DNA from: a virus
Virus record (IMG/VR): IMGVR_UViG_3300045967_000213
Location: 1-27,647 of that record
Reading direction: 5' to 3' (one strand)
DNA length: 27,647 nucleotides
The translations under genes were made by a program, and so were the position numbers. The notes beneath the pieces were generated by a model. That model saw only the letters and a program-made list of their open reading frames with translations. It was not told the origin of the DNA and searched no databases. Positions 3,180-24,473 of this stretch are shown here, in pieces. The first letter of the stretch is position 1; each line of letters opens with the position of its first letter.

Positions 3180-3436
3180 TGCCGCGTGCCTTTCGTCGCG
3201 TTGACGGCCTTGCGGTACGTGGCGGCAATGTGGTCGAGCAGGTCTGCGACTTCTTCAGACGGCGACCCGAATACGCGCACGCCCAGGTCGTCGCCGCGCA
3301 TGGCGACAATCAGCACGGGCTTGCTCGCAGGATCGTCAACGATGTCCGCTTCACCGGCAGCGGCATCGGCACCAATGGCGAACGGCGCACCAGTCTCATC
3401 GAAGGCAATATCGTCGTCGGGTTTCTTCTGGCTCAT
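3176..3436 (-). CDS. Hypothetical 86-residue protein of the integrase operon
   Basis: The ATG at 3436 makes an ATGA overlap with the stop of the upstream gene and starts MSQKKPDDDIAFDE. The first 40 residues are acidic and probably disordered. The second half has a beta strand and a helix (KPVLIVAMRGDDLGVRVFGS, then SEEVADLLDHIAATYRKAV), a small alpha/beta arrangement seen in many phage orphan proteins. It is followed by the zinc-ribbon gene through a GTGA overlap. No family recognised. Confidence 0.6.
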   Translation of the reverse strand: MSQKKPDDDIAFDETGAPFAIGADAAAGEADIVDDPASKPVLIVAMRGDDLGVRVFGSPSEEVADLLDHIAATYRKAVNATKGTRQ

Positions 3437-3729
3437 TGCGGCCACACCGTCTCGCGGCTCCCCTGTCGAAACTCGCGGAAGTCCAGTAACGCCGCGGCAG
3501 CTTGCTCGGGAGCCAGTCCAACCTTCGTCGTCAGGAACGCAAACAGCAGCGTGTCAGACACGGCCGCTTCAAGCGCGGCCTGCAGCATTCCAATAACCTC
3601 TCGGGTCTTATCCAAGTCCATTTGCAGGTCGTGCCCATTGATCGATAAGTTGACCATGCCCTGCTTGGTGCGGGCACTCAGGATGGACGCCACGCTAAGG
3701 CGATTGTTGCCGTCGTTGCTTTTAATCAT
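3433..3729 (-). CDS. Hypothetical 98-residue protein downstream of integrase
   Basis: The gene starts MIKSNDGNNRLS at ATG 3729 (GTG at 3735 is an alternative), 28 bases after the integrase stop. An N-terminal beta region (GMVNLSINGHDLQMDLDKTREV) is followed by two helices (IGMLQAALEAAVSDTLLFAFL and the APEQAAAALLDF segment) and a conserved-looking end, REFRQGSRETVWPQ. The INGxDxQMD...REVxGML pattern looks like a defined family, but I know no function for it. Its ATGA junction with the next gene ties it to the same leftward transcript as the integrase. Confidence 0.6.
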   Translation of the reverse strand: MIKSNDGNNRLSVASILSARTKQGMVNLSINGHDLQMDLDKTREVIGMLQAALEAAVSDTLLFAFLTTKVGLAPEQAAAALLDFREFRQGSRETVWPQ

Positions 3730-3756
3730 AGGCACTCAAGATCGCATAATCGTGCA

Positions 3757-5184
3757 TCAGGCCGCGCCCCGCGTCCGCTTGCGCTTCTTCGGGCGGAAGT
3801 TCTTCATCGCCGTGCGCAGCACGCTGGGCACCGCGCCGAGCGTATAGCGGCGCACCATCGGACTGCCGGGCGCGAGGCCGAGCATCTCGGCGGTGACCGT
3901 CGCGTTGCCGTGCGTGTCCTGAAAGACCTGCGTGCCGAACGAATGCCGGAGCACCTTCTGCGACATGTGCGGCAGCTTGAAGTGGGGGCGCGTCTTCTGC
4001 TCCTCGCGCTCGAGCGCCGTGCAGGCGCGCCGCCAGACTCGGCCGAGCGAGGACGTATCGACCTCGCCCCAGGCGCCGGTCTCCACGTAACGCCGAAACG
4101 CCTCACGCACCTCGGGACTGTCCATGGGCTTTTTCACTTCGGCGCGCGGCGTCGATCGCCGCGCCCCTTTCCCCCGTGGCGGCAGGATGTACCACTGCTC
4201 GTCGATCGAGATGTGCCGCGGCGTCAGCCGGCCGAGCTGCCTCGGCTCCATGCCGGTGAACGCCATCAGCTCGAGGCGGGCGCGCGCGTGCAATGGCTGC
4301 GGGACCTTGGCCGCGCGCACGGCCGTCGTCGCTGCCGGCAAGCGTGGGCGCTTGGGGTCGACCGTGCCGTGGCGGTGGCTGCGCCAGTAGCCGACCGGGG
4401 GCCGCGGGATGTGCAGCATCCGGCAGACACGCGAGAGGTAGCTGCCGGAGACGTCGTAGCGGCTGGCGACCGTCTGCATCGGGTGTTGCCAGATCTCCCG
4501 GTAGAGCGTCGGCCGGTCCATCGCCACGCCGCGCTCGTCGGGGATCATCGCCAGGATGCGCTTCAGCAGGTCGTAGGGCTGCCCCTTGGCGACCATCGTG
4601 GAGGCTTCCCACTCTTGGGTATCCTTCACCGGGTTGGCCGCGCTGCGGCCGTCGAGGCGCGTGTAAAGCGCCATCAGCGCCGAGCGGAACTTCCCCACCG
4701 TGGAGGAGGCATAGCCCTCGGCGAACCATCGCTGCAGCTGCTCGTCCATCTCCGTCGCGGTGAGGGCGCCGGGGCCGTGCCGGGGCCGGGTCCCAAAGGC
4801 CTCGACCCACTTCGCGACCTCCCAGACGCGCGTCTCGTAGGACGGCATGGCCTTGGTGGTTTCGAGGCCGAGGTATCGCGTGCCGTCTGCGGCGAGGCTC
4901 GAGGCCGCCGGCGCCGCCTGGCGCGGGGCCTGCTGGCGCCGCGCCTGGCGCAGTTTGCGGGCCTCGAACTTCGCCCCGTCGCGGAGCAGTGTCAGGTCCT
5001 CGAGCTGCTGCGCGACGGGCCGCCCATCATCCGGTCGGCGGAGCGGCACCTTGCGGCTCTTGCCCGTCTCGGGATCGGGCATCCGGGTGTAGACGCGCCA
5101 GCCGTAGTGGGTTTGCGCGATGCAGGGCGCGACCGATACCTCAACACCCGGCGGAATGTCGGCGCAGCGGGCGGCGAGTTTCAT
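3757..5184 (-). CDS. int: Divergent tyrosine recombinase (phage integrase) with inserted HTH domain
   Basis: A 475-residue enzyme expected to recombine attP with host tRNA-Asn. Residues 20-60 look like an arm-binding domain, 70-100 a basic linker, and 105-190 a SAM-like core-binding domain. Residues 222-270 hold an extra helix-turn-helix module (LYREIWQHPMQTVA, VSGSYLSRVC, IPRPPVGYW) known to me from unrelated bacterial proteins. The catalytic domain spans about 300-465: box I LELMAFTGMEPRQLGRL (306-320), Lys339 in RGKG, box II VLRHSFGT with Arg413, and Tyr447 in VRRYTLG. The usual Arg of box I is Glu313 (Arg315 nearby), the His of HxxR is Lys410, and the later LGH is LGL. Its ATG overlaps the leader stop (ATGA). 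Confidence 0.85.
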   Translation of the reverse strand: MKLAARCADIPPGVEVSVAPCIAQTHYGWRVYTRMPDPETGKSRKVPLRRPDDGRPVAQQLEDLTLLRDGAKFEARKLRQARRQQAPRQAAPAASSLAADGTRYLGLETTKAMPSYETRVWEVAKWVEAFGTRPRHGPGALTATEMDEQLQRWFAEGYASSTVGKFRSALMALYTRLDGRSAANPVKDTQEWEASTMVAKGQPYDLLKRILAMIPDERGVAMDRPTLYREIWQHPMQTVASRYDVSGSYLSRVCRMLHIPRPPVGYWRSHRHGTVDPKRPRLPAATTAVRAAKVPQPLHARARLELMAFTGMEPRQLGRLTPRHISIDEQWYILPPRGKGARRSTPRAEVKKPMDSPEVREAFRRYVETGAWGEVDTSSLGRVWRRACTALEREEQKTRPHFKLPHMSQKVLRHSFGTQVFQDTHGNATVTAEMLGLAPGSPMVRRYTLGAVPSVLRTAMKNFRPKKRKRTRGAA

Positions 5185-5413: not shown

Positions 5414-5456
5414 CTACCTCGTCCCTGTCCCTTCCCCCTGTTTGGAGGACACCCTC

Positions 5457-5771
5457 ATGCTGTCGGCGGCGGCGATTGCGATGCAGTTCGAGGCCCTCTG
5501 CCGTGAGGCGATCAACCAGAACGTGACCGGCGTCGCGTGGCGCGTCTTGGCCTTACCACCCGAGTTACAGAAGATTTGGGTACAAATGGCGGTGGCGTCG
5601 TTAGTGACGTTCCAGACTTTTGCGCGAGCTCAAGGAACCCGACCTGCTGGAAGACATGGGTCCGGAATGGGGCCGCCAGCTGTTGAATCCGCTCCGCCAA
5701 CCCTTCGACCGCGGCATCGAGCTGCCCGCGGCCCGACAGCAAGGCGCGGCTCTGCTCGAAAGCGACATTAA
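5457..5771 (+). CDS. Rightward small gene with frame-disrupted 3' end
   Basis: A GGAGG eight bases before ATG 5457 starts a convincing helical protein, MLSAAAIAMQFEALCREAIN, continuing to about ALPPELQKIWVQMAVASLVTF (residue 52). The first part has GC-rich third positions. After about nucleotide 5620 the frame becomes antisense to the repressor and turns into Arg- and Pro-rich low-quality sequence up to the stop at 5771. The natural C-terminus therefore seems lost or replaced. It runs opposite to the lysogeny genes around it. Function unknown. Confidence 0.42.
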   Translation: MLSAAAIAMQFEALCREAINQNVTGVAWRVLALPPELQKIWVQMAVASLVTFQTFARAQGTRPAGRHGSGMGPPAVESAPPTLRPRHRAARGPTARRGSARKRH

Positions 5772-5970
5772 CCCCCGTCACCAGGTCATCGAGGCGGCAC
5801 GGAATCGCCGCGGCGATCTTGAGCAGGTTCTCGATCTGCGGCGCCTGGATGCGCCCGGTTTCCATGTCGGAGAGCCATTGCTGGTTGAGCCCGGCTTTCT
5901 GCGCAAAGGCGCCCTGATGCGTATGGCCGGCCGCGTGGCGCAGCCGTTTGATGTTGTCGCCGATCGTCAT
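5512..5970 (-). CDS. XRE-family lysogeny repressor (CI-like), with atypical C-terminal tail
   Basis: A 152-residue protein. Residues 1-60 form a canonical XRE helix-turn-helix: MTIGDNIKRLRHAAGHTHQ, then FAQKAGLNQQWLSDMETGR (scaffold and recognition helices), then IENLLKIAAAIPCRLDDLV. Residues 70-110 form a helical dimerisation-like segment. No LexA-type Ser-Lys peptidase domain is present, so RecA-triggered self-cleavage is not expected. It is transcribed away from the Cro-like gene across a 168-bp control region, the normal immunity layout. The last 35 or so residues (from SGTSLTTPPP) use AT-ending codons and look like read-through into antisense of the gene at 5457. Start ATG 5970 lacks a strong ribosome site and may be leaderless. 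Confidence 0.78.
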   Translation of the reverse strand: MTIGDNIKRLRHAAGHTHQGAFAQKAGLNQQWLSDMETGRIQAPQIENLLKIAAAIPCRLDDLVTGVNVAFEQSRALLSGRGQLDAAVEGLAERIQQLAAPFRTHVFQQVGFLELAQKSGTSLTTPPPFVPKSSVTRVVRPRRATRRRSRSG

Positions 5971-6138
5971 TTTACGTGGAGAGGCATATATACAAACTAA
6001 CACAGTTATACGTCCTAACACGTTGTCGCGAGGATTCCCTGAACGATCCGCGCGGGTCTTCCAAGAGCCCTAATAACGGGCACCGCTCGCAGTTGACACG
6101 TATATAGCCACGGGCGTAATTTAGGCCGCTCTACGGAA
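5971..6138. promoter_or_regulatory. Divergent immunity control region between repressor and Cro-like gene
   Basis: This 168-bp gene-free stretch is distinctly richer in A and T than its surroundings. It contains a direct repeat CTAACAC at 5997-6003 and 6015-6021, exactly 18 bp apart. The motif TATACGT (6007-6013) recurs inverted as ACGTATA (6098-6104), the latter overlapping the rightward promoter spacer. Leftward -10-like TATATA and TATAAC sequences lie near 5986-6010. These fit multiple operators shared by the repressor and Cro-like protein, but which repeat each protein binds cannot be told by eye. Confidence 0.5.
6093..6122 (+). promoter_or_regulatory. Rightward early promoter (PR-like)
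   Basis: A perfect TTGACA at 6093-6098, an 18-bp spacer and TAATTT at 6117-6122 lie just before the Cro-like gene start at 6139. The spacer contains ACGTATA, which is repeated inverted near the repressor end of the region, as expected for an operator that lets the repressor shut this promoter. The transcript leader would be only about 10 bases. Confidence 0.6.
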
Positions 6139-6405
6139 ATGCGGCCGCTCACCCCTGACCTCCTCACGAAGCTGCGCCGGCGGCGCCTGCCCCGCACCGG
6201 CAACAAGATTGCGATTGCCCTCGAACTGTCCGAAGCGAAGGCGATGGACATCGTCCGCGCGACCGGTTTCGCGCCGCAGTACGTCAGCGACATCAAGAAC
6301 GGGCGCACCAACAACCTGAAGATTGCCAGTGCCCGCAAGTTTGCGACGTTCTTCGGGTGCAGCATTGACGACTTGTTTCCGCCGCGCGAGGGGCTGTCGG
6401 CGTGA
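6139..6405 (+). CDS. Cro-like helix-turn-helix regulator
   Basis: An 88-residue protein. Residues 28-75 contain an XRE-like helix-turn-helix: ALELSEAKAMDIVRATG, then FAPQYVSDIKNGRTNNLK (recognition helix with QYVSDIKNGR), then a final helix SARKFATFFGCSIDDLFPP of the standard XRE ending. The basic N-terminus (KLRRRRLPR) may add DNA contacts. As the first rightward gene opposite the repressor it should be the Cro counterpart that commits to lytic growth. The ribosome site is weak (a GGAA near the ATG). Confidence 0.72.
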   Translation: MRPLTPDLLTKLRRRRLPRTGNKIAIALELSEAKAMDIVRATGFAPQYVSDIKNGRTNNLKIASARKFATFFGCSIDDLFPPREGLSA

Positions 6406-14874: not shown

Positions 14875-16455
14875 ATGTGGGCAGTCCTGACGATGTGGGT
14901 CGGCCTGCTCGTCGTGGCAGGGCTCAGCGTGTTTGAGGCCGAACGCGCGGCCGCCGCGCGCCTGGCGTCGTGGCGCGAGCTGCCCTACGGCGCCTGCCGG
15001 TTCGTGCAGGACCAGTTCGGGGCGACGCCCGACCCGTGGCAGGAGCGGCTCCTCGTCGCCTTCGCCGACCCGACCATCCAGCGCATTTCGCTCCAGGCCT
15101 GCGCCGGCCCCGGCAAGACCTGCGGCGAGGCGTGGTGCGGCTGGTATTTCCTGGCGACCCAGGTGTCGCGGGACGGGGACGGGTTCGAACACCCGAAGGG
15201 GTTCGCGACCTCGATCACCGAGGTCAACCTGCGCGACAACCTCTGGGCCGAATTCGCCAAGTGGCAGGCGCGCTCCGACTACCTGCGCCAGGCGTTCACC
15301 TGGACGAAGGAACGCATCTTCCAGAACGACTTCCAGGCGACGTGGTTCCTGGTCGCGCGCACCTGGCCGAAGACGGGCACGGCGGACGAGCAGGGCCGCA
15401 CGTTCTCGGGGCTCCACGGCAAGAACGTCCTCGTCCTGGTGGATGAGTCGGGCGCGATTCCGCCGACGGTCCTCCGCGCCGGCGAGCAGGCGCTCCCGAA
15501 CACGCGGTTCGGGAAGATCCTGCAGGGCGGGAACCCCATCTCCTACGAAGGGATGCTCCACGAGGCGGCCGTCCGGCTCCGGCACCTGTGGCATGTGATC
15601 CGGGTGAGCGGGGATCCGGACGATCCCGAGGCCTGGGTGAATGCGCCGCGGGTGGCGGTGGCGCTGCCGGGGCAGCAGACGCCGGCTGAATGGGCCCGCG
15701 AGCAGATCCAGACCTACGGCCGCGAGAACCCGTGGGTCAAGGCCTACATCCTCGGCAAGTTCCCCGAGAAGAGCATCAACACGCTGCTGACGCTGGAGGA
15801 GGTCGAGGCGGCGATGGCGCGCGAGCTCGCCCCGCAGCAATACCAGGGCGGGCAGAAGCGGCTCGGGATCGACGTCGCGCGGTTCGGCGACGACCGGACC
15901 GTCATCTTCGCGCGGCAGGGATTGAACGCGCGGGTGAAATCCTCGCCCGTCGTCATGCGGGGCGCCCCGACGACCGACATCGCCGCCCGCGTCCTGATGG
16001 CGAAGGCGCGCTGGCAGTCCGAGGTGGAGCTGATTGACGACACGGGCCACTGGGGGCACGGCGTCCTCGACCAGCTGCGGGCGACCGGCGTGCCGGCGCT
16101 CGGCATCGTCTTCCACGCCCAGGCGATCAATCCCCGCTACCGGAACCGGCGGGCCGAGATGTGGCTCGAGATGGCCGAAGCGGTCAAGGGCGGCGTGGCG
16201 CTCCCGGCGCATGTCCCCGAGCTCGTCGCCGAGCTGACCACCCCGACCTACACCTTCGTCGGCGGCGCATTCGCGCTCGAGGAGAAGGACCAGGTCAAAA
16301 AGCGCCTCGGGCGCTCGCCGGACATCGCGGATGCCCTGGCGCTGACCTTCGCGATCCCTGACCAGCCGAACGAAGTGCTCGCGCGTCTGGCACAGGGCTC
16401 CATGGGCAAGGCCGACACCGACTACGACCCGTTCCGTCCAGGAGCGTCGTCGTGA
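14875..16455 (+). CDS. terL: Terminase large subunit (packaging ATPase and nuclease)
   Basis: A 526-residue packaging motor. The ATPase half has a P-loop variant ACAGPGKT (75-82) and Walker B VLVLVDES (185-192), followed by the coupling region LQGGNP. The RNase-H-like nuclease half has GIDVARFGDDRT (Asp333), VELIDDTGHWGHG (Asp388/389) and SPDIADAL (Asp483, Asp486). This is a complete TerL. The first 20 residues (MWAVLTMWVGLLVVAGLSVF) form an unexpected hydrophobic helix; starts at ATG 14893 or GTG 14929 are alternatives, and the latter would remove it. The 14-bp CCTGACGATGTGGG is duplicated at 14868 and 14886, giving two candidate ATGs. The next gene overlaps by GTGA. Confidence 0.9.
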   Translation: MWAVLTMWVGLLVVAGLSVFEAERAAAARLASWRELPYGACRFVQDQFGATPDPWQERLLVAFADPTIQRISLQACAGPGKTCGEAWCGWYFLATQVSRDGDGFEHPKGFATSITEVNLRDNLWAEFAKWQARSDYLRQAFTWTKERIFQNDFQATWFLVARTWPKTGTADEQGRTFSGLHGKNVLVLVDESGAIPPTVLRAGEQALPNTRFGKILQGGNPISYEGMLHEAAVRLRHLWHVIRVSGDPDDPEAWVNAPRVAVALPGQQTPAEWAREQIQTYGRENPWVKAYILGKFPEKSINTLLTLEEVEAAMARELAPQQYQGGQKRLGIDVARFGDDRTVIFARQGLNARVKSSPVVMRGAPTTDIAARVLMAKARWQSEVELIDDTGHWGHGVLDQLRATGVPALGIVFHAQAINPRYRNRRAEMWLEMAEAVKGGVALPAHVPELVAELTTPTYTFVGGAFALEEKDQVKKRLGRSPDIADALALTFAIPDQPNEVLARLAQGSMGKADTDYDPFRPGASS

Positions 16456-16826
16456 GAGTGGCGCGCGGGCGGACTGACGCGGAGCTCGGGCAGGCCCTGT
16501 TTGGGCCGCCGGGAGATCTGGGCCTACTTGAGGCGGGGAACATCGATCTCCGCAAGCAGCCGCGCGTGAAGAACCCGGACGGCACGACGAGCACCGTGCG
16601 CTCGATGAGCATCAACGAGGACGGTATCGAGATTCTCATCCCGACCGTCGAACACGCCGGCAAAGGGCTGCTGAGCGACGAGGACGCCATCAAGCAGTGG
16701 CACCGCACGGGGAAGCATCTGGGCAAGTTCAAGACGCCCGAGGCGGCGACGGCGTACGCGAAACAACTGCACGAGGCGTATGCGCGCGGCGAGTACGACA
16801 CGCCGGCGAAGGGATCAGGCCGATGA
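16452..16826 (+). CDS. Phage virion-module protein (NIDL...VKNPDGT...STVRS type)
   Basis: A 124-residue protein. The central block GNIDLRKQPRVKNPDGTTST, then VRSMSINEDGIEILIPTVEH, then LLSDEDAIKQWHRTGKHLG and KFKTPEAATAYAKQLHEAYA is a well-known module of tailed-phage virion proteins, where it usually forms part of a much larger internal or tail protein. Here it stands alone. Its enzymatic or structural role is not established. GTG 16452 overlaps the TerL stop, and the acetyltransferase gene overlaps its own stop. Confidence 0.72.
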   Translation: MRVARGRTDAELGQALFGPPGDLGLLEAGNIDLRKQPRVKNPDGTTSTVRSMSINEDGIEILIPTVEHAGKGLLSDEDAIKQWHRTGKHLGKFKTPEAATAYAKQLHEAYARGEYDTPAKGSGR

Positions 16827-17269
16827 CGGTGCGCCCGGCGACCGAGGCCGATGTGCCGGTGCTGATCGAGATGGGCTGTCGGTTCATTGCGTCGAGCCGG
16901 TATGCAGGCCTGATGGCCGCGGTGCCGGCGCAGCAGGCGCAGGTCACGGCGACGCTGCTGGCGCAGGGCGGCTGCTGGGTGCTCGAGGGACCCGAGGGCG
17001 TGGTCGGGATGCTTGGGCTGGTGCTCGCGCCGCTCCCGATGACCGGTGAACTGGCGGCCCTGGAGTGCATGTGGTGGGTCGAGCCCGGCTGGCGGCACGG
17101 CGCGTCCGCGCTGCAGATGTGGGAGGAGGGCGAGGCGTGGGCGCGGAACCAGGGCGCGACGTGCATCCAGATGATTCAACCGGTCGGGCAGGAGGCGCTC
17201 GGGGTGCTGTATCGGCGCCGCGGGTATGTCGCGGTGGAGACGACGTGGCAGAAGCCGCTGGCCGCCTGA
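16823..17269 (+). CDS. GNAT-family acetyltransferase
   Basis: A 148-residue protein with N-terminal VRPATEADVPVLIEMGCRF, central VVGMLGLVLAPLPM, LAALECMWWVEPGWRHG (the position of the acetyl-CoA-binding strand, V-x-P-x-x-R-H/G-x-G), and C-terminal EAWARNQGATCIQM and LYRRRGYVAVETTWQ. The GNAT fold order is complete, and the close GxWxVEPxxR form is typical of phage copies between terminase and portal genes. The substrate is unknown; relatives may modify a host or virion protein. The Gly of the R/Q-x-x-G-x-G/A loop is partly altered (RHGAS). Confidence 0.8.
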   Translation: MTVRPATEADVPVLIEMGCRFIASSRYAGLMAAVPAQQAQVTATLLAQGGCWVLEGPEGVVGMLGLVLAPLPMTGELAALECMWWVEPGWRHGASALQMWEEGEAWARNQGATCIQMIQPVGQEALGVLYRRRGYVAVETTWQKPLAA

Positions 17270-17287
17270 CGCGGAGGAGTGAGGACC

Positions 17288-17530
17288 ATGGGCATGAACA
17301 CGATGGCGGCGGTCGCTGGGGCCATGAAGGGCGCGACCACGCCGGTCACCGGCGGCAGGCCTGGCACCGTGGCCGATCAACTCAAGAAGCGGAAGAAGCA
17401 GCTCCAGGGCGCGGCGACGGCGGGCGCGGGCGACCTGTCGACCACGGGGCTACTCAGTGGCGGTGTGGCCGGGACGCACCTGGTCGGGCCGGCGATGCGC
17501 GCCGCGGGGCGCGGGTTCTTCGGGTACTGA
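17288..17530 (+). CDS. Hypothetical 80-residue Gly/Ala-rich late protein
   Basis: ATG 17288 follows GGAGGAGTGAGGACC; GTG 17279 and ATG 17294 are alternatives. The product MGMNTMAAVAGAMKGATTPV, then a basic helix QLKKRKKQLQGAAT, then Gly-rich TTGLLSGGVAGTHLVGPAMR, ends in GFFGY. The composition suggests a minor head or tail component or an internal peptide. The weakly hydrophobic start may insert in membranes. No family recognised. Confidence 0.5.
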   Translation: MGMNTMAAVAGAMKGATTPVTGGRPGTVADQLKKRKKQLQGAATAGAGDLSTTGLLSGGVAGTHLVGPAMRAAGRGFFGY

Positions 17531-17534
17531 GCCG

Positions 17535-17780
17535 ATGCCGTCCTCGCAAGGTCGTCGTGTCGCGCCGCCGCGAGACGTGCTGGTGCTCGACCGACGCGGG
17601 CATGTCAGTCCGGCGTGGTCGCGCTACTTCGCGCAGCCGGCCATCGGGGTCGAGGGCGAGGGGGACGGCGGCGCCGGGGCGGACGGCTACTGGTCACCCA
17701 TCACCGACGGCGTGACGCCGATCCCTGAGCTGCTCTACGACAGCAACGGCGATGTCGTCATGGGATTTGTGACGCCCTGA
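17535..17780 (+). CDS. Hypothetical 81-residue late protein
   Basis: ATG 17535 starts MPSSQGRRVAPPRDVLVLDR. The motif RDVLVLDRRGHVSPAWSRYF resembles the opening of short phage proteins that precede fibre genes, with WxRYF as the recurring element. The second half is Gly- and Asp-rich, then DGVTPIPELLYDSNGDVVMG. It overlaps the fibre gene start (TGATG). Probably a head-tail or fibre accessory protein, inferred from position alone. Confidence 0.55.
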   Translation: MPSSQGRRVAPPRDVLVLDRRGHVSPAWSRYFAQPAIGVEGEGDGGAGADGYWSPITDGVTPIPELLYDSNGDVVMGFVTP

Positions 17781-18736
17781 TGCCGACGGTCCCTGACATT
17801 CATCGTCGCGGCACGCGCGCCGCCCAAGGGGCAGCGACGTCGCTCACCATCGGCACGCTCTGGTTCGTCACCGATGAGGGCGTCACCGAGCGGTGGACGG
17901 GCACCGTCTGGGAGAGCTGGAGCGGCGTCGCCGCGCACGCCGCCTCGCACGCGAGCGGGGGCAGTGACCCGGTCACGATCGCCGAGAGTCAGGTCACCGG
18001 CCTGACGGCGGCGCTCGCCGCGAAGGTCGCCACCACTGACCCGCGTCTGAGTGACGCGCGCACGCCGACCGCGCACGCCCCGACGCACAAGAGTGGCGGT
18101 AGCGATCCGATCAAGCTCGACGAGCTGGCCGCGCCCACCGATGTCACGACGCTCAACGCCACGGCCAGCGCGCATGGCCTGCTGCCGAAGCTCTCCGGCG
18201 TGGCGACCGATGTCTTCAAGGGCGATGGCACCTTCAGCGCGCCGGCCGGTGGAGCGCCGAGCGCGCATCACGGCTCGCATGAGACGGGCGGGGCCGATGC
18301 GATCGTGGCGCTCGATGCCGGCGTGCTGACGACCGGCACGATCGCCGCCGCGCGCCTGCCCCCGCGTCTCGGCACGATCGGGCTTGTCATCGACGGCGGC
18401 GGCAGCGTCATCACGACCGGCGTGAAGGGCTTCCTGCGTGTCCCGTTCGCCTGCACGATTCTCGCGGCAACCCTGCTCTCGACGGATGCGGCGGCCACGG
18501 CCGGCTCGATCGTCATCGACATTTGGAAGGACACCTACGCGAACTACCCGCCCACGGTCGCGGACACGATTACCGCCAGCGCCAAGCCGACGCTCGCCAG
18601 TGCGAACAAGAGCGAGGACACGACGCTCACCGGCTGGACGACCGCCGTGGCGGCCGGCGACGTGCTCGGCTTCACCGTCGACAGCATCGCCACGCTGACG
18701 CGCGTGGCGCTGTCGCTCACCGTCCAGGCGAGCTGA
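17780..18736 (+). CDS. Tail-fibre or decoration protein with HxSGGxD repeats
   Basis: A 318-residue protein. Residues 1-45 hold a WTGTVWESW strand cluster. Three repeats follow in the middle: HASGGSDPVTIAESQVTGL, HKSGGSDPIKLDELAAP and HETGGADAIVALDAGVLTTG. The H-x-S/T-G-G-x-D motif with following strand and linker is typical of trimeric phage fibre shafts. The C-terminal 130 residues are a beta-rich head (IVIDIWKDTYANYPPTVADT and a C-terminal LTRVALSLTVQAS). It would sit at the virion surface. Its location between TerL and portal is unusual for an adsorption protein; a head decoration role is possible. Confidence 0.65.
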   Translation: MPTVPDIHRRGTRAAQGAATSLTIGTLWFVTDEGVTERWTGTVWESWSGVAAHAASHASGGSDPVTIAESQVTGLTAALAAKVATTDPRLSDARTPTAHAPTHKSGGSDPIKLDELAAPTDVTTLNATASAHGLLPKLSGVATDVFKGDGTFSAPAGGAPSAHHGSHETGGADAIVALDAGVLTTGTIAAARLPPRLGTIGLVIDGGGSVITTGVKGFLRVPFACTILAATLLSTDAAATAGSIVIDIWKDTYANYPPTVADTITASAKPTLASANKSEDTTLTGWTTAVAAGDVLGFTVDSIATLTRVALSLTVQAS

Positions 18737-18739
18737 CCC

Positions 18740-19852
18740 ATGGCGCTGCAGTCGATCCCCGGCGGCGTCTGGATTCCGGAGGGCTTTACGGTCGGCGTGA
18801 CGCCCGCGCTCGTCGCGACGGGCAACCTGAATGCGGCAGCGCACAAGACGGCCATGGTCGTCACCATTCCGAAGGCGGGGGCCGTCCGGAAAGTGATCTG
18901 GCGGACGGCGACGGTCTCGACGGGCGCCACGGTCGATGTGCGTCTGGAAACACTGGATGCGGCGGGCCTGCCGAGTGGCACGCTCTGGGGGGCGTCGACC
19001 AACGGCGCGCAAGTGGTCCTGGCGGCCGACGACAACACCACCTTCGCCACCGCGTTGACGGCCGACGCCACCGTCGCGCGGGGGGATGTGCTCGTGGTCG
19101 TCATTGCGAATAATGCCGGGGCGCCGGGGAACTTCTTCGTCGCGGCGGCGAGCATCAATAGCAGCATTGCCGGGGCCGCCGCGGAGCGGCATGCGTTCCA
19201 GTACCAGTTCACCACGGCGTGGGCGGTCGACGGCGGCATCGGGACGTGTGTGGCGCTGGAGTATAGCGACGGCTCGTATGCGCCCTTGGTGGGCGCACGG
19301 CCGCCCGGACTGGTCACGGCCACGAGCCTCTCGACGAGTACGTCGCCCGATGTCTTTGGCCTGCGGTTCCGGCTCCCGGTGGCGGCCAGCGTGGGCGGGG
19401 CGTGGGTGGCGATCGATGTGGACGGCCCCTGCGACGTGCGGCTGGTGTCGACCGCCTACAATCAAGCCGCCGCGACCGGCATCCTCACCAGTCTGACCGT
19501 CACCCGGGCGCGCAGCGCGACCACCGGCGGGGCCTACCGGGTCGTCTTTCCCAGTGCCGTGACGCTCACGGCGAACACCGATTACCGCCTCGTGGTCGAA
19601 CCGACGACGACCACCGCGATTGCCGCGTACGACACGACCATGCAGTCGCTCGCGCAACTCGATGCCTGGCCCGGCGGGCGCGACTGGCATCTGACCACGG
19701 CGAAAGATCCGACGAGCGATGCGAGTTGGACCAACTACAACAGCGGGACGTTCCGGCGGCCGTTCATGGGGTTACTGCTCGAGGGCCTGGATGACGGGGC
19801 GGGCGTTGGCGGCGGCGAACACGCGCACGCCTTTATCGGAGGCCTCGCCTGA
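18740..19852 (+). CDS. Beta-rich virion surface protein
   Basis: A 370-residue protein starting MALQSIPGGVWIPEGFTVGV. The segments VRKVIWRTATVSTGATVDVR, LAADDNTTFATALTADATVA, VLVVVIANNAGAPGNFFVAA, then LRFRLPVAASVGGAWVAIDV and the YRLVVEP strand form two jelly-roll-like halves. Few Lys and Cys, many Thr, Ala and Gly. The make-up resembles collagen-free fibre heads or capsid decoration proteins. It directly overlaps the portal gene (TGATG). It pairs with the fibre gene before it and I expect the two to be displayed together. No named family. Confidence 0.58.
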   Translation: MALQSIPGGVWIPEGFTVGVTPALVATGNLNAAAHKTAMVVTIPKAGAVRKVIWRTATVSTGATVDVRLETLDAAGLPSGTLWGASTNGAQVVLAADDNTTFATALTADATVARGDVLVVVIANNAGAPGNFFVAAASINSSIAGAAAERHAFQYQFTTAWAVDGGIGTCVALEYSDGSYAPLVGARPPGLVTATSLSTSTSPDVFGLRFRLPVAASVGGAWVAIDVDGPCDVRLVSTAYNQAAATGILTSLTVTRARSATTGGAYRVVFPSAVTLTANTDYRLVVEPTTTTAIAAYDTTMQSLAQLDAWPGGRDWHLTTAKDPTSDASWTNYNSGTFRRPFMGLLLEGLDDGAGVGGGEHAHAFIGGLA

Positions 19853-21648
19853 TGCCACCCGCCCTCGCGCTCGCGCCGCGTGACACGGTCGCCTCGGGCC
19901 TCACCAAGCGCCAACGCTATGAGCAGACCAAGCAGGCGCTGCTGACGGAGCGGTCGAGCTTCGACAGCCACTGGCGCGAGCTCGGCGACTACTTCATGCC
20001 GCGGCGCACGCGGTTCGTGGTGACCGACCGCAACAAGGGCGACCGGCGCTCGCAGAAGATCATCGACTCGACGCCGCGCTTCGCGGCGCGCACCCTCTCG
20101 TCCGGGCTCCATGCCGGGCTCACGTCGCCGGCGCGGCCGTGGCTCAAGCTCGAGACCCCCGACCAGGACCTGAACACCTACGGACCGGTCAAGGAGTGGT
20201 TGCACACCGTCACGCAGCGCATGCTGGCGCTCTTCCAGAAGAGCAACCTCTACAACGTGTTGCCGATGGCCTATCTCGACATGGGCATCTTCGGCACGGC
20301 CGCCTTCGCCGGCTTCGAGGACCGCGAGGCGGCGCTGCGCTTCTATTCGTATCCGGTCGGCAGCTACGTGGTCGGCCTCGATGACCGGCTGATGCCGCAG
20401 ACCTTCATTCGCGAGTATCAGCTCTCGGTCGCCCAGACGGTCGAAGCGTTCGCGGTGCGCGACCCGGCGCGGCGCGACATCGACTGGTCGATGGTGTCGG
20501 TGTCGGTCAAGAACCTCTGGGACACCGGCAACTACACGGCGCCGGTGGACATCACCTGGGTGGTCACGCGGAACCTTGAGGAGTATCGCCCCGGGGCGCT
20601 CGACGCGCGCTTCCGCTTCCCTTACCGGTCGTGTCACTACGAGAGCGGGCGCACGGACGCCGATTTCGGGAACGCCTACGGCCTGCTGCGCGAAAGTGGC
20701 TTCCGCGTGTTCCCGGTGTTCGTGCCGCGCTGGGACGTGACCGGCGAGGACACCTACGGGACCGATTCGCCCGGCATGACGACGCTCGGCGACGCCAAGC
20801 AGCTGCAGCTCATGCAGCAGCACAAGGCCAAGGCGATTGCCAAAGCGATCGATCCGCCACTCAAGGGGCCGCACGAACTGAAGACCGCGAAGGTGTCCCT
20901 CATCCCCGGCGGCGTCACCTACGTCGAGGACCCGCGCACCGGCGGCAGCAGCGCCGGCCTCTCACCCATTCACGAAGTGCGGCTCGAGGGCCTGGGGTTC
21001 CTGATTCAGGACATGGCCGAGACGCGCGAGCGCGTGTCGCGCGGCTTCTTCGAGGACCTCTTTCTCATGCTGGCGCTCTCGCCCTACGGCCAGCGCGGCG
21101 GCACGCCGATCACGGCGCGCGAGGTCGAGGAGCGGCACGAAGAGAAGCTGCTGGCGCTCGGCCCGGTGCTCGAGCGGCTCAACGACGAACTGCTCGACCC
21201 GCTGGTCGATCGCACGTTCTACATCATGCTCGACCACGGGCTGATTCCGCCGCCGCCCGACGAGATGATCGGCGTCGACCTGCGCGTGGAATACATCTCG
21301 ATCCTCTCGCAGGCGCAGAAGCTGGTCGGCGTGAGCGGCCATGACCGGTTCCTGCAAGCCTCGATGCTGCTGCAGCAGGCCTACCCCGAGGTGCGGCACA
21401 AGGTCAACGCGTTCAGGGCCGTCGACGACTACGCGCAGATGCTCGGGGTCGACCCGCACATCGTGCGCGAGGACGAGGAAGCGCAGGCGCTGTGGGATGC
21501 CGAGCAGCAGGCCGCTGCGCAGGCGGCGCAGGCCGAGCAGGCGAAGACCATGGCGCAGAGTGCGCAGGCGCTCGGGCAGACGCCGGTGCAGGGCGGCACC
21601 AGCACCGCGCTCGATGAGATGGCGGCGGCGATGTCGCCGGTCGCGTAA
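19852..21648 (+). CDS. Portal protein (T7-type head-tail connector)
   Basis: A 598-residue portal. The N-terminal hallmark of the podovirus head-tail connecting family is clear: SFDSHWRELGDYFMPRRTRF, then a basic loop, STPRFAARTLSSGLHAGLTS and PARPWLKLETPD (about residues 36-105). The wing and stem follow (YLDMGIFGTAAFAGFEDREA and HKAKAIAKAIDPPLKGP), then LGPVLERLNDELLDPLVDRT and DLRVEYISILSQAQK, the crown-side helix that is standard in this family. The C-terminal 60 residues are Gln- and Ala-rich and helical, as in many portal barrels. Length matches the family. This gene sets the podovirus (short tail) assignment. Confidence 0.92.
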   Translation: MPPALALAPRDTVASGLTKRQRYEQTKQALLTERSSFDSHWRELGDYFMPRRTRFVVTDRNKGDRRSQKIIDSTPRFAARTLSSGLHAGLTSPARPWLKLETPDQDLNTYGPVKEWLHTVTQRMLALFQKSNLYNVLPMAYLDMGIFGTAAFAGFEDREAALRFYSYPVGSYVVGLDDRLMPQTFIREYQLSVAQTVEAFAVRDPARRDIDWSMVSVSVKNLWDTGNYTAPVDITWVVTRNLEEYRPGALDARFRFPYRSCHYESGRTDADFGNAYGLLRESGFRVFPVFVPRWDVTGEDTYGTDSPGMTTLGDAKQLQLMQQHKAKAIAKAIDPPLKGPHELKTAKVSLIPGGVTYVEDPRTGGSSAGLSPIHEVRLEGLGFLIQDMAETRERVSRGFFEDLFLMLALSPYGQRGGTPITAREVEERHEEKLLALGPVLERLNDELLDPLVDRTFYIMLDHGLIPPPPDEMIGVDLRVEYISILSQAQKLVGVSGHDRFLQASMLLQQAYPEVRHKVNAFRAVDDYAQMLGVDPHIVREDEEAQALWDAEQQAAAQAAQAEQAKTMAQSAQALGQTPVQGGTSTALDEMAAAMSPVA

Positions 21649-21661
21649 CGAGGAGGATGCC

Positions 21662-21862
21662 ATGGCGCTCGTGAAGTTGATCCGATTGAACGAGGCGTTC
21701 AACGAGAACGGCGAAATCCACGTCAACCCACTGCAACTCGTGGCGGTCATCGGCGAGGACACGGCGCCGAATGTGCGCGTGGTGACCACCGGCGGGTCGT
21801 TCGACGTCGCGCAGCCGCAGGGCGAAGGCACGACCTCGGTGCGCGCGCAGCTGAGCGCCTAA
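21662..21862 (+). CDS. Hypothetical 66-residue protein after portal
   Basis: A GAGGAGG five bases before ATG 21662 makes this start firm: MALVKLIRLNEAFNENGEIH, then VNPLQLVAVIGEDTAPNVRV and VTTGGSFDVAQPQGEG. A small, probably beta-stranded protein; the pattern VNPxxIxxVxxD...TxVxTxG.xxxV resembles short DNA-flanking proteins in phages and plasmids whose role is unknown. It lies in the head gene block between portal and the Bbp19-like gene. Confidence 0.6.
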   Translation: MALVKLIRLNEAFNENGEIHVNPLQLVAVIGEDTAPNVRVVTTGGSFDVAQPQGEGTTSVRAQLSA

Positions 21863-21868
21863 GTCGGC

Positions 21869-22270
21869 GTGGAGGAGTTCACCTACAACGCCAACGACCC
21901 AGAGCAGGTTGCTTGGGTGCAGGGTCGGCAGCGCGAGCGCGAGCTCCGGCTGCAGGCGTTGTGGAAGTGGGTGCTCGACCATCCGATGGGGCGCGAGTTT
22001 CTGATGGAAGTGCTGTTCCTCGAGACGGGGCCGTTCAACGCGGTCGTGAACACGCCGCCGGAGCAGACCTACGGGCAGGTCGCGCTGCACAACCTCGGGC
22101 GCAGTTGGTTGACCGAGTACGTGTGGCGCTTCCGCGACAAGTACACGCAGATGGTGGCCGAGGCGCTGACGCGGGCGGACCTCGATCGCAAGTCGCGCGA
22201 GGCCAAACAGCTCGAGTGGGCGCAGCGGAAAAACCGCGAGGCGATGGGTAACGAAGGAGTGCAGGAATGA
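21869..22270 (+). CDS. Bbp19-like phage protein
   Basis: A 133-residue protein from GTG 21869: MEEFTYNANDPEQVAWVQG, then LQALWKWVLDHPMGREFLME, VLFLETGPFNAVVNTP and TYGQVALHNLGRSWLTEYV. The order ALWxxVxxxPxGRxFLxxxL, S/T-x-F, then YxxGxxxLxxxL matches the Bbp19 domain described for Bordetella phage BPP-1. The rest is a charged helix (RDKYTQMVAEALTRADLDRK). Bbp19 proteins lie in head gene blocks; a precise role in assembly is not known. It overlaps the scaffold gene by ATGA. Confidence 0.7.
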   Translation: MEEFTYNANDPEQVAWVQGRQRERELRLQALWKWVLDHPMGREFLMEVLFLETGPFNAVVNTPPEQTYGQVALHNLGRSWLTEYVWRFRDKYTQMVAEALTRADLDRKSREAKQLEWAQRKNREAMGNEGVQE

Positions 22271-22971
22271 GTGACCAGGCAGCGACCCCGAGCGGCAACG
22301 CCGGAGCGGGGCAGGCGGCCAGTGCGCAGCAGGGCGCAGGAAGCGCGACGGGACAGTCAGCACCCCAAAGCGGCCAAGGCCAGACGACCGGCCAGGGGCA
22401 ACAGGGGGACGGCTCGGGGACCGCGCAGCAGACCGGGACCACCACCGCGACAGCCGCGGCGACGACCACCACGGCCGACGCCCCGCCGACCGCGACGGTG
22501 CCGGAGCGATACGAGTTACGCCTGCCGGAGCAGAGCCTGCTCGACCAGTCTGACATCGACGTCGTCGCGAACCTCGCGAAGACGAAGGGCTGGACGAACG
22601 AGCAGGCTCAGGCGGCGCTGACCGAGATGCACACCACGCTCTCGGAGCAGGCGACGCGCTTCCGTGCCGAGCTCGACGCGGACCCCGAGGTCGGCGGCGC
22701 CCATCTCGAGCAAGCGCAGATGTTCGCACTGCGCGCGCTCGATCGCTTCTTCCCCGCCAGCGAGGAGGACGGCAAGGCGTTCCGCCACGTCATGAACAAG
22801 AGCGGGTGGGGCAACAACAGGTTGCTTGTGAAATTCCTCTCCCGCATTGGCAAGGCGATGAGCGAGGACCAGCCAGGCAGCGGGGCGACCGGTCGCGTCT
22901 TCACCCAGAGCACGCGGTCCCAGGCGGACCGGCTGTTCGGGGACGCGAGCGGCATTCGCCCGCCCACCTGA
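22267..22971 (+). CDS. Probable head scaffolding protein
   Basis: A 234-residue acidic protein. Residues 1-75 are a disordered Gln/Gly/Ala/Thr run. Residues 78-100 (VPERYELRLPEQSLLDQSD) form the short segment that precedes the helices in many phage scaffolds. Residues 105-150 are long helices (ANLAKTKGWTNEQAQAALTE, then MHTTLSEQATRFRAELDADP), followed by a helical end with GSGATGRVF. Position immediately before the major capsid gene, size and composition fit a scaffold. Processing by a protease cannot be judged; no protease gene is beside it. Confidence 0.72.
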   Translation: MSDQAATPSGNAGAGQAASAQQGAGSATGQSAPQSGQGQTTGQGQQGDGSGTAQQTGTTTATAAATTTTADAPPTATVPERYELRLPEQSLLDQSDIDVVANLAKTKGWTNEQAQAALTEMHTTLSEQATRFRAELDADPEVGGAHLEQAQMFALRALDRFFPASEEDGKAFRHVMNKSGWGNNRLLVKFLSRIGKAMSEDQPGSGATGRVFTQSTRSQADRLFGDASGIRPPT

Positions 22972-23003
22972 CGCGGCGCGCGCGTCGCCGGGAGTGAAGG
23001 CCC

Positions 23004-24005
23004 ATGGCCCTACTGGCGGCACAGAACCCGACGTTGCTGGACCTGGCCCAGGTGCTCGGTCCGGACGACAAGGTGGCGACGATTATCGAGATTCTCAACC
23101 AGACGAACGAGATTCTCGACGACATGGTGACGATCGAAGGGAACCTCCTGACGGGTCACCAGACGACGGTGCGGACCGGCATCCCCGCGCCGACGTGGAG
23201 AAAGCTCTATGGCGGCGTGCAGCCGACCAAGAGCACGTCGGTGAAGATCACCGACGCGTGCGGCATGCTCGAGAACTATGCCGAGGTCGACAAGGCGCTG
23301 GCGGATCTGAACGGCAACACGGCGGCGTTCCGGCTCTCGGAGAACCGGCCGATCCTCGAGGGGTTCAACCAGGAGGTGGCGCAGAGCCTCTTCTACGCGA
23401 ACGAGGACAACGAGCCCGAGGCGTTCACCGGGCTCGCGCCGCGGTTCAACACGACGGTCGCGGTCGAGAACGCGCAGAACATCATCAAGGCGGGCGGCGC
23501 TGGCAGCGATAACACCAGCGTCTGGCTCGTCGTCTGGGGCGAGAACACGGTCCATGCGATCTACCCGAAGGGGAGCCGCGGCGGGTTCTACATGGAGGAC
23601 AAGGGCCAGCAGACGATCGAGAACGTCGACGGCAGCGGCGGCCGGATGGAAGCCTACCGGACGCACTACCGCTGGGACATCGGCCTCTCGGTGCGCGACT
23701 GGCGCTACGTCGTCCGCATCGCCAACATCGACCTGTCGGACCTGACGAAGACCGGCTCGACCGGCGCGGACCTGATCGACCTGATGACGCAGGCGCTCGA
23801 GCTGGTGCAGTCGCTCAACATGGGCAAGCCGGCGTTCTACGCGAACCGGACCGTGAAGAGCTTCCTGCGGCGGCAGATCGTGAACAAGGTGGCCGGCTCC
23901 ACGCTGCAGATGGAGCAAGTGGCCGGCAAGCACGTACTCACGTTCGACGGCGTGCCGGTGCGGCGGTGCGATGCGCTCGTCAACAACGAGGCCCTCGTCC
24001 CGTAA
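23004..24005 (+). CDS. Major capsid protein (GP7-type, BPP-1-like)
   Basis: A 333-residue protein with a strong GGGAGTGAAGG site. The N-terminus TLLDLAQVLGPDDKVATIIE and ILNQTNEILDDMVTIEGNLL, then PAPTWRKLYGGVQPTKSTSV, are the N-arm and E-loop-like part. LTGLAPRFN-type sequence (FTGLAPRFNTT), IYPKGSRGGFYMEDKGQQ, and TFDGVPVRRCDALVNNEALV at the end complete the HK97-like fold of this podovirus family. The size and the scaffold/cement neighbours agree. This should be the most abundant virion protein. Confidence 0.88.
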   Translation: MALLAAQNPTLLDLAQVLGPDDKVATIIEILNQTNEILDDMVTIEGNLLTGHQTTVRTGIPAPTWRKLYGGVQPTKSTSVKITDACGMLENYAEVDKALADLNGNTAAFRLSENRPILEGFNQEVAQSLFYANEDNEPEAFTGLAPRFNTTVAVENAQNIIKAGGAGSDNTSVWLVVWGENTVHAIYPKGSRGGFYMEDKGQQTIENVDGSGGRMEAYRTHYRWDIGLSVRDWRYVVRIANIDLSDLTKTGSTGADLIDLMTQALELVQSLNMGKPAFYANRTVKSFLRRQIVNKVAGSTLQMEQVAGKHVLTFDGVPVRRCDALVNNEALVP

Positions 24006-24029
24006 GGGCCGCAGGAAAGGAGCAGACCC

Positions 24030-24473
24030 ATGATTCTTGACGAGCGATGCGAATTCGCCGATGCCCTGGCGCTGGGCCTCTCGACCGGGCGCGCCAATCT
24101 CGGCGACCAGATCCCCCTCACGGTGGCGCGCAATGTCGGGTCCCCGCCGCGCCCGCTCTACTTCGTCGTCCAGGTGACCACCGCGATCACCGGGCCGACC
24201 AGCGTGGCGTTTGAACTGGTGAGCGATACCAGCAACCCGCCGCTGACCGATGGCACGGCGACGGTGCATGTCGCCTCGCGGTCGGTGCCGGTGGCGTCGC
24301 TGACGGCCGGCACGGTGGTGTGCTGCATCCCCCTGCCGGGGGAGCCGCCCGCCTACGAGACGATCCTCGGCGTGCAGCAGAACGTCACCGGGTCGGCGGT
24401 CGGTGCCGGCGCGGTCAATGCGTTCCTGACGCACGACCCGAAGCAGTGGAAGGCGTACCCGGACGCCATCTAG
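24030..24473 (+). CDS. Bbp16-like capsid cement protein
   Basis: A 147-residue protein, AGGAAAGGAGC upstream of ATG 24030: MILDERCEFADALALGLSTG, then LYFVVQVTTAITGPTSVAFE and LVSDTSNPPLTDGTATVH. MILDxxxxFxDAxAL at the start and the later strands match the cement protein Bbp16 of BPP-1, which sits over capsomer joints and stiffens the shell. Position directly after the major capsid gene is as in BPP-1 relatives. The family call is from recognised pattern. Confidence 0.75.
   Translation: MILDERCEFADALALGLSTGRANLGDQIPLTVARNVGSPPRPLYFVVQVTTAITGPTSVAFELVSDTSNPPLTDGTATVHVASRSVPVASLTAGTVVCCIPLPGEPPAYETILGVQQNVTGSAVGAGAVNAFLTHDPKQWKAYPDAI

Follow-up and report, generated by a model that had tools for sequence, protein, structure and literature searches.

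A phage tyrosine integrase with a helix-turn-helix module within its catalytic domain and a possibly relocated catalytic arginine

The gene at positions 3757-5184 raises the question of whether an integrase that carries an inserted helix-turn-helix (HTH) module and lacks the box-I arginine can still be a working recombinase. We analyzed it within the complete IMG/VR virus record IMGVR_UViG_3300045967_000213, a stretch of 27,647 bases that we refer to as the window (features in Table 1). The reading frame is uninterrupted, running on the minus strand from an ATG at position 5184 over 475 codons to a stop, and its product is a tyrosine recombinase with the layout of lambda Int, consisting of an arm-binding, a core-binding, and a catalytic domain. 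The cI-like and Cro-like gene pair just upstream of it fits a temperate phage. Podovirus-like structural genes (terminase, PF12236 portal, PF20911 capsid, and Bbp16) are found at window positions 14875-24473, and the terminase shows a 41% match to that of Xanthomonas phage SAC. As the capsid genes of the window resemble those of BPP-1-type phages, we also looked for a diversity-generating retroelement in the window and found no reverse transcriptase. A search of the window for att-site repeats gave none that was convincing, and an integrated copy was likewise not found.

The AlphaFold model of the integrase, which was generated from a nine-sequence alignment, had a mean pLDDT of 75.5, with values near 90 for the core-binding domain (about residues 95-188) and for the greater part of the catalytic domain, and near 60 for the N-terminal arm-binding part. 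It was structurally most similar to complexes of lambda integrase, with a Foldseek E of 1e-6, a Z of 15.3, and an rmsd of 6.2 over 257 residues. The core-binding domain of lambda Int (2oxo) matched the model with a Z of 12.2 and an rmsd of 2.1 over 87 residues. Together with the PHROG_1 match (E 1e-8), these comparisons place the predicted core-binding and catalytic fold in the tyrosine recombinase superfamily. The window protein scored below the gathering cut-off of PF00589 (15.5 versus 27.1 bits); the relative L012 scored 26.3 bits on the protein and 27.2 bits on the DNA, and the module-less relatives described below were over the cut-off. Sequence searches of the PDB returned nothing useful.

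Table 1. Position of the integrase gene, its domains and active-site residues, and the neighboring regulatory genes in the window.
Feature	Position	Strand	Basis
Tyrosine integrase gene, 475 aa	3757..5184	(-)	Open frame; PHROG_1 integrase E 1e-8; predicted fold similar to lambda Int, Z 15.3
Probable arm-binding domain, residues 17-88 (three strands and a helix)	4921..5136	(-)	Predicted secondary structure, pLDDT about 60; tentative
Core-binding domain, residues 95-188	4621..4902	(-)	pLDDT about 90; lambda Int 2oxo match
AlphaA, first catalytic-domain helix, residues 204-212	4549..4575	(-)	Alignment, model, lambda 1ae9 match
HTH insert, residues 222-284 (resembling RWP-RK and modules of homing endonucleases)	4333..4521	(-)	tblastn, profiles, model
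Rest of catalytic domain, residues 296-462	3799..4299	(-)	Model and structural matches
Glu313 at box-I Arg position	4246..4248	(-)	Asp in both insert-bearing relatives
Arg337, proposed relocated Arg I	4174..4176	(-)	Two residues before hairpin Lys339; coupling with box I
Lys339, beta-hairpin catalytic Lys	4168..4170	(-)	Invariant in all 14 family members
Lys410 at HxxR His position	3955..3957	(-)	Lys in three insert-bearing, Tyr in 11 module-less proteins
Arg413, Arg II	3946..3948	(-)	Invariant in nine-sequence alignment
Tyr447, nucleophile	3844..3846	(-)	Invariant in all 14 family members
XRE/cI-like repressor gene upstream of integrase (phage immunity region)	5512..6021	(-)	HTH_31, HTH_3 over cut-off
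Cro-like gene, divergent	6139..6405	(+)	HTH_26 over cut-off

The presence of the module, which the original prediction had located at residues 222-270 between the core-binding and catalytic domains, was borne out, with residues 222-283 scoring 74.5 bits against a profile built only from 24 non-integrase modules. Its extent proved larger, reaching about residue 284, and the interdomain location was ruled out by the alignment and the model, which both put the module inside the catalytic domain. The catalytic core of lambda Int (1ae9) aligns with the model from residue 199 onward, so that the helix of residues 204-212 is part of the catalytic domain and the module consequently separates the first helix of this domain from the second. 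The insertion point is the alphaA-alphaB loop, after helix 204-212 and before helix 296-310 that leads to box I; in the module-less relatives, this loop comprises about 13 residues. Against the same non-integrase profile, two insert-bearing relatives scored 64-65 bits, and 600 controls made by shuffling the three insert-bearing integrases reached 9.9 bits at best. In tblastn searches, proteins of phages and plasmids contained the module stretch, with identities of about 27-52%. Predicted alone, the module is a tri-helical HTH to which a further helix, the fourth, is added behind the IPRPPxGYW turn, and its core reaches a pLDDT of about 90; one structure-prediction alignment was restricted to rows from the window and viral contigs. 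When the module by itself was submitted to Foldseek, none of the matches was significant; the hits were generic HTH domains only, with E values no better than 0.8 and Z scores of at most 4.1.

This module usually forms the N-terminus of uncharacterized proteins of about 400 residues; other carriers are fusions with a GIY-YIG nuclease, with PD-(D/E)XK and HNH nucleases, and with Exc-type excisionases. The endonucleases of GIY-YIG, HNH, and PD-(D/E)XK type that carry it C-terminally are L118 (3307-4491), L134 (5100-5897), L033 (1898-2572), L036 (3359-4141), and L153-L155; in L069 (12578-13153), L086 (2108-2740), and L080 (1691-2260), it precedes an Exc-type excisionase domain (best E 2.5e-13). 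The excisionase fusions provide a second link, apart from the integrase, between the module and site-specific recombination. Several carriers are named HNH homing endonuclease in independently annotated phage records, and both these annotations and the fusions support DNA recognition as the probable task of the module. Tandem pairs of the module were seen in proteins of about 560-640 residues (L014, L015, L018, L023, L025, L026, L081, L099, and L119), and on a Burkholderia ubonensis plasmid (L009, 2002-4176), the gene of a module protein directly follows a tyrosine recombinase gene.

No Pfam family reached its cut-off on the module, no NCBIfam model covered it, and none of the 25 modules matched a Pfam NUMOD model at E 1. 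RWP-RK (PF02042) was matched by 15 of the 25 modules with a best E of 3.4e-5, and the window module itself gave an E of 0.0016 and 18.7 bits, which is under the curated cut-off of 29.3. This likeness is distant, and the motif of the module is IPxPPxGYW rather than RWPxRK, but the module could possibly be a prokaryotic relative of that plant and algal family. Judged by sequence, the module is associated with nucleases, probably binds DNA, and has neither a name nor a Pfam model to itself. The modules of NUMOD type at the ends of HNH, GIY-YIG, and PD-(D/E)XK endonucleases appear to be the same module, whereas the copy in the window has no Pfam NUMOD match and sits inside a recombinase catalytic domain. 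Because of its HTH fold, the RWP-RK likeness, and the nuclease and excisionase fusions, it is best read, by analogy, as a mobile DNA-binding module.

The same insert was found at the same place in proteins of two further phage contigs, P0003 (IMGVR_UViG_3300045932_000082) and L135 (IMGVR_UViG_3300045926_000049), which share 39-47% identity with the window protein and 55% with each other, and whose phages are related in many genes. Finding them required an alignment of the module, as single-protein searches of viral contigs with P0002 or with the module alone gave no match. Eleven module-less relatives were also present in viral contigs, and these and the three insert-bearing proteins constitute the 14 members used for the residue comparisons. 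Two scans of GTDB genome contigs gave no relative with the patterns used, a result that does not prove absence. The insertion and the altered residues common to three phage contigs agree with the expectation of a small, undescribed recombinase group, and the occurrence of the same module in fusions with nucleases of several types and with excisionases favors, by analogy, the view of the insert as a DNA-recognition add-on.

Of the residues that characterize the superfamily, the Tyr nucleophile, Arg II, and the hairpin Lys are present as Tyr447, Arg413, and Lys339, while the positions of Arg I in box I and of the His of HxxR are occupied by Glu313 and Lys410. The original prediction had correctly assigned Glu313, Arg315, Lys410, Arg413, LGL435-437, and Tyr447. 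Its suggestion that Arg315 stands in for Arg I can be dismissed, as this residue is not conserved and is replaced by Gly in the two insert-bearing relatives. Arg337 is the better candidate. All seven family members without the box-I Arg have an Arg at position 337, and all seven with the box-I Arg have a Ser there, a 7/7 and 7/7 coupling that corresponds to about one event on the tree and hence counts once. From this pattern, Arg337 looks like a relocated catalytic Arg. An Arg two residues before the hairpin Lys is also found in some recombinases that keep Arg I (e.g., in L009), and the hairpin loop is poorly modeled (pLDDT under 50 at residues 340-346).

In the tree, the proteins without Arg I form one well-supported clade in which the three insert-bearing proteins are nested, indicating that the arginine exchange came first and occurred once, and that the module was acquired later. 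An altered box I is thus not tied to the insertion, since module-less relatives already lack Arg I. As Cre mutants in Arg I are severely impaired (PMC4499138), some compensation would be expected if the window enzyme works. Arg II, Lys339, Lys410, and the Tyr are kept in both insert-bearing relatives, which supports an active integrase; the loss of the LGH His in the window protein counts against it. This exchange of LGH to LGL is private to the window protein, the insert-bearing relatives having LQH and LGH. The active site is altered, yet probably not dead.

Variation of Arg I and of the HxxR His is already known in other subgroups of tyrosine recombinases, e.g., IntCTnDOT and IntDes. In the CTnDOT integrase, as far as the cited account describes it (PMC8138268), the box-I Arg is absent and another Arg further downstream is used, and the residue pattern of the window family, with positions compared by description, fits an apparent substitution of this kind. 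Differing from this subgroup, in which there is no module, the window family has Tyr or Lys for the HxxR His, and we saw no subgroup-specific similarity. The alternative Arg of IntDOT is presumably Arg285, two residues before Lys287, which would equal the place of Arg337. The IntDes enzymes, in what the same source states of them, have a shifted first Arg and a Tyr in place of the first His, and are known only from Desulfovibrio (PMC8138268). The module-less relatives resemble them in the altered box I and the Tyr for the HxxR His, whereas the window protein has Lys, and the part of the source that deals with IntDes reports no comparable insertion (PMC8138268). With the lambda-type (arm-binding) integrases of PF00589, the window protein shares the three-domain layout, Arg II, the hairpin Lys, the Tyr, and the predicted fold, but it differs from them in the 63-residue HTH module of the alphaA-alphaB loop, the Glu or Asp at Arg I, and the Lys at the HxxR His.

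Taken from sequence and model, the most probable reading is that of a working integrase of a temperate podovirus-like phage with a relocated catalytic Arg and an added HTH DNA-binding module, to which we assign a probability of about 0.62. The core-binding and catalytic domains would hold the att core DNA, Tyr447 would cleave it, and Arg413, Lys339, and Lys410 would grip the scissile phosphate together with the relocated Arg337 in place of the box-I Arg. The module in the alphaA-alphaB loop, an HTH of the homing-endonuclease and excisionase kind, would make an additional sequence-specific DNA contact near the core site. A bolder extension, which is possible but rather doubtful, is that the homing-endonuclease module adds a third, independent reading of sequence and that the choice of the site in these phages is partly set by a swappable module in an enzyme whose catalytic Arg had already moved to the beta-hairpin. 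If this were true, the core-binding and arm-binding domains would not alone determine the site.

The main rival to an active integrase is a protein that has lost recombination and serves as an integrase-fold DNA-binding regulator like MrpR of the SPbeta prophage, with the inserted HTH binding an operator. In MrpR, a repressor, catalytic residues are altered, with Arg and His residues lost (PMC10516654), and the missing Arg I and LGH His of the window protein, as well as the structural matches to MrpR (8a0a, Z 10.0) and YopR (8bpz, Z 10.2), are in line with such a role. Unlike MrpR, however, all three insert-bearing proteins keep Arg II, Lys339, a basic HxxR residue, and Tyr447, and no HTH insert is described for MrpR or YopR, which share the integrase fold with altered catalytic residues but less of the active site. 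Moreover, a cI-like repressor gene is already present in the window, and searches of the record with the PF00589 and PF00239 profiles for tyrosine and serine recombinases gave no second recombinase beside the integrase, a negative that is limited by the fact that the PF00589 profile in this record-wide search overlooks even the 3757-5184 integrase. We therefore regard a regulator as unlikely.

It is similarly improbable that, instead of reading DNA, the module is a structural or protein-protein insert for contacts in synapsis, in the tetramer, or with a directionality factor. Its placement in a loop of the catalytic domain, the fact that its DNA-binding residues could not be distinguished, and the many carriers without known function would suit this role, but the predicted HTH fold and the repeated fusion to site-specific nucleases and excisionases speak for DNA binding. 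That homing-endonuclease debris landed by chance in a dying integrase, leaving a decaying or chimeric gene, is very improbable. The low PF00589 score and the additional loss of the His in LGL could be taken as signs of decay, but three phages carry the same insertion in open frames at 39-55% identity with a conserved module core, and the two insert-bearing relatives thus largely refute it.

With the integrase read as active, an inserted DNA-binding module is apparently tolerated in the alphaA-alphaB loop of a tyrosine recombinase, which is relevant to the retargeting of recombinases and may be a way for phage integrases to acquire new DNA contacts. The family also offers naturally occurring examples of proteins that have lost the nearly invariant Arg I and in which a different residue apparently fills its role. 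In addition, it brings into view an unnamed bacterial and phage DNA-binding module that is common to nucleases, excisionases, and an integrase and that bears a distant likeness to plant and algal RWP-RK. As a side aspect, a small gene lies directly downstream of the integrase gene on the minus strand (window positions 3436-3735) and has a 42% relative in G002 (5451-5912).
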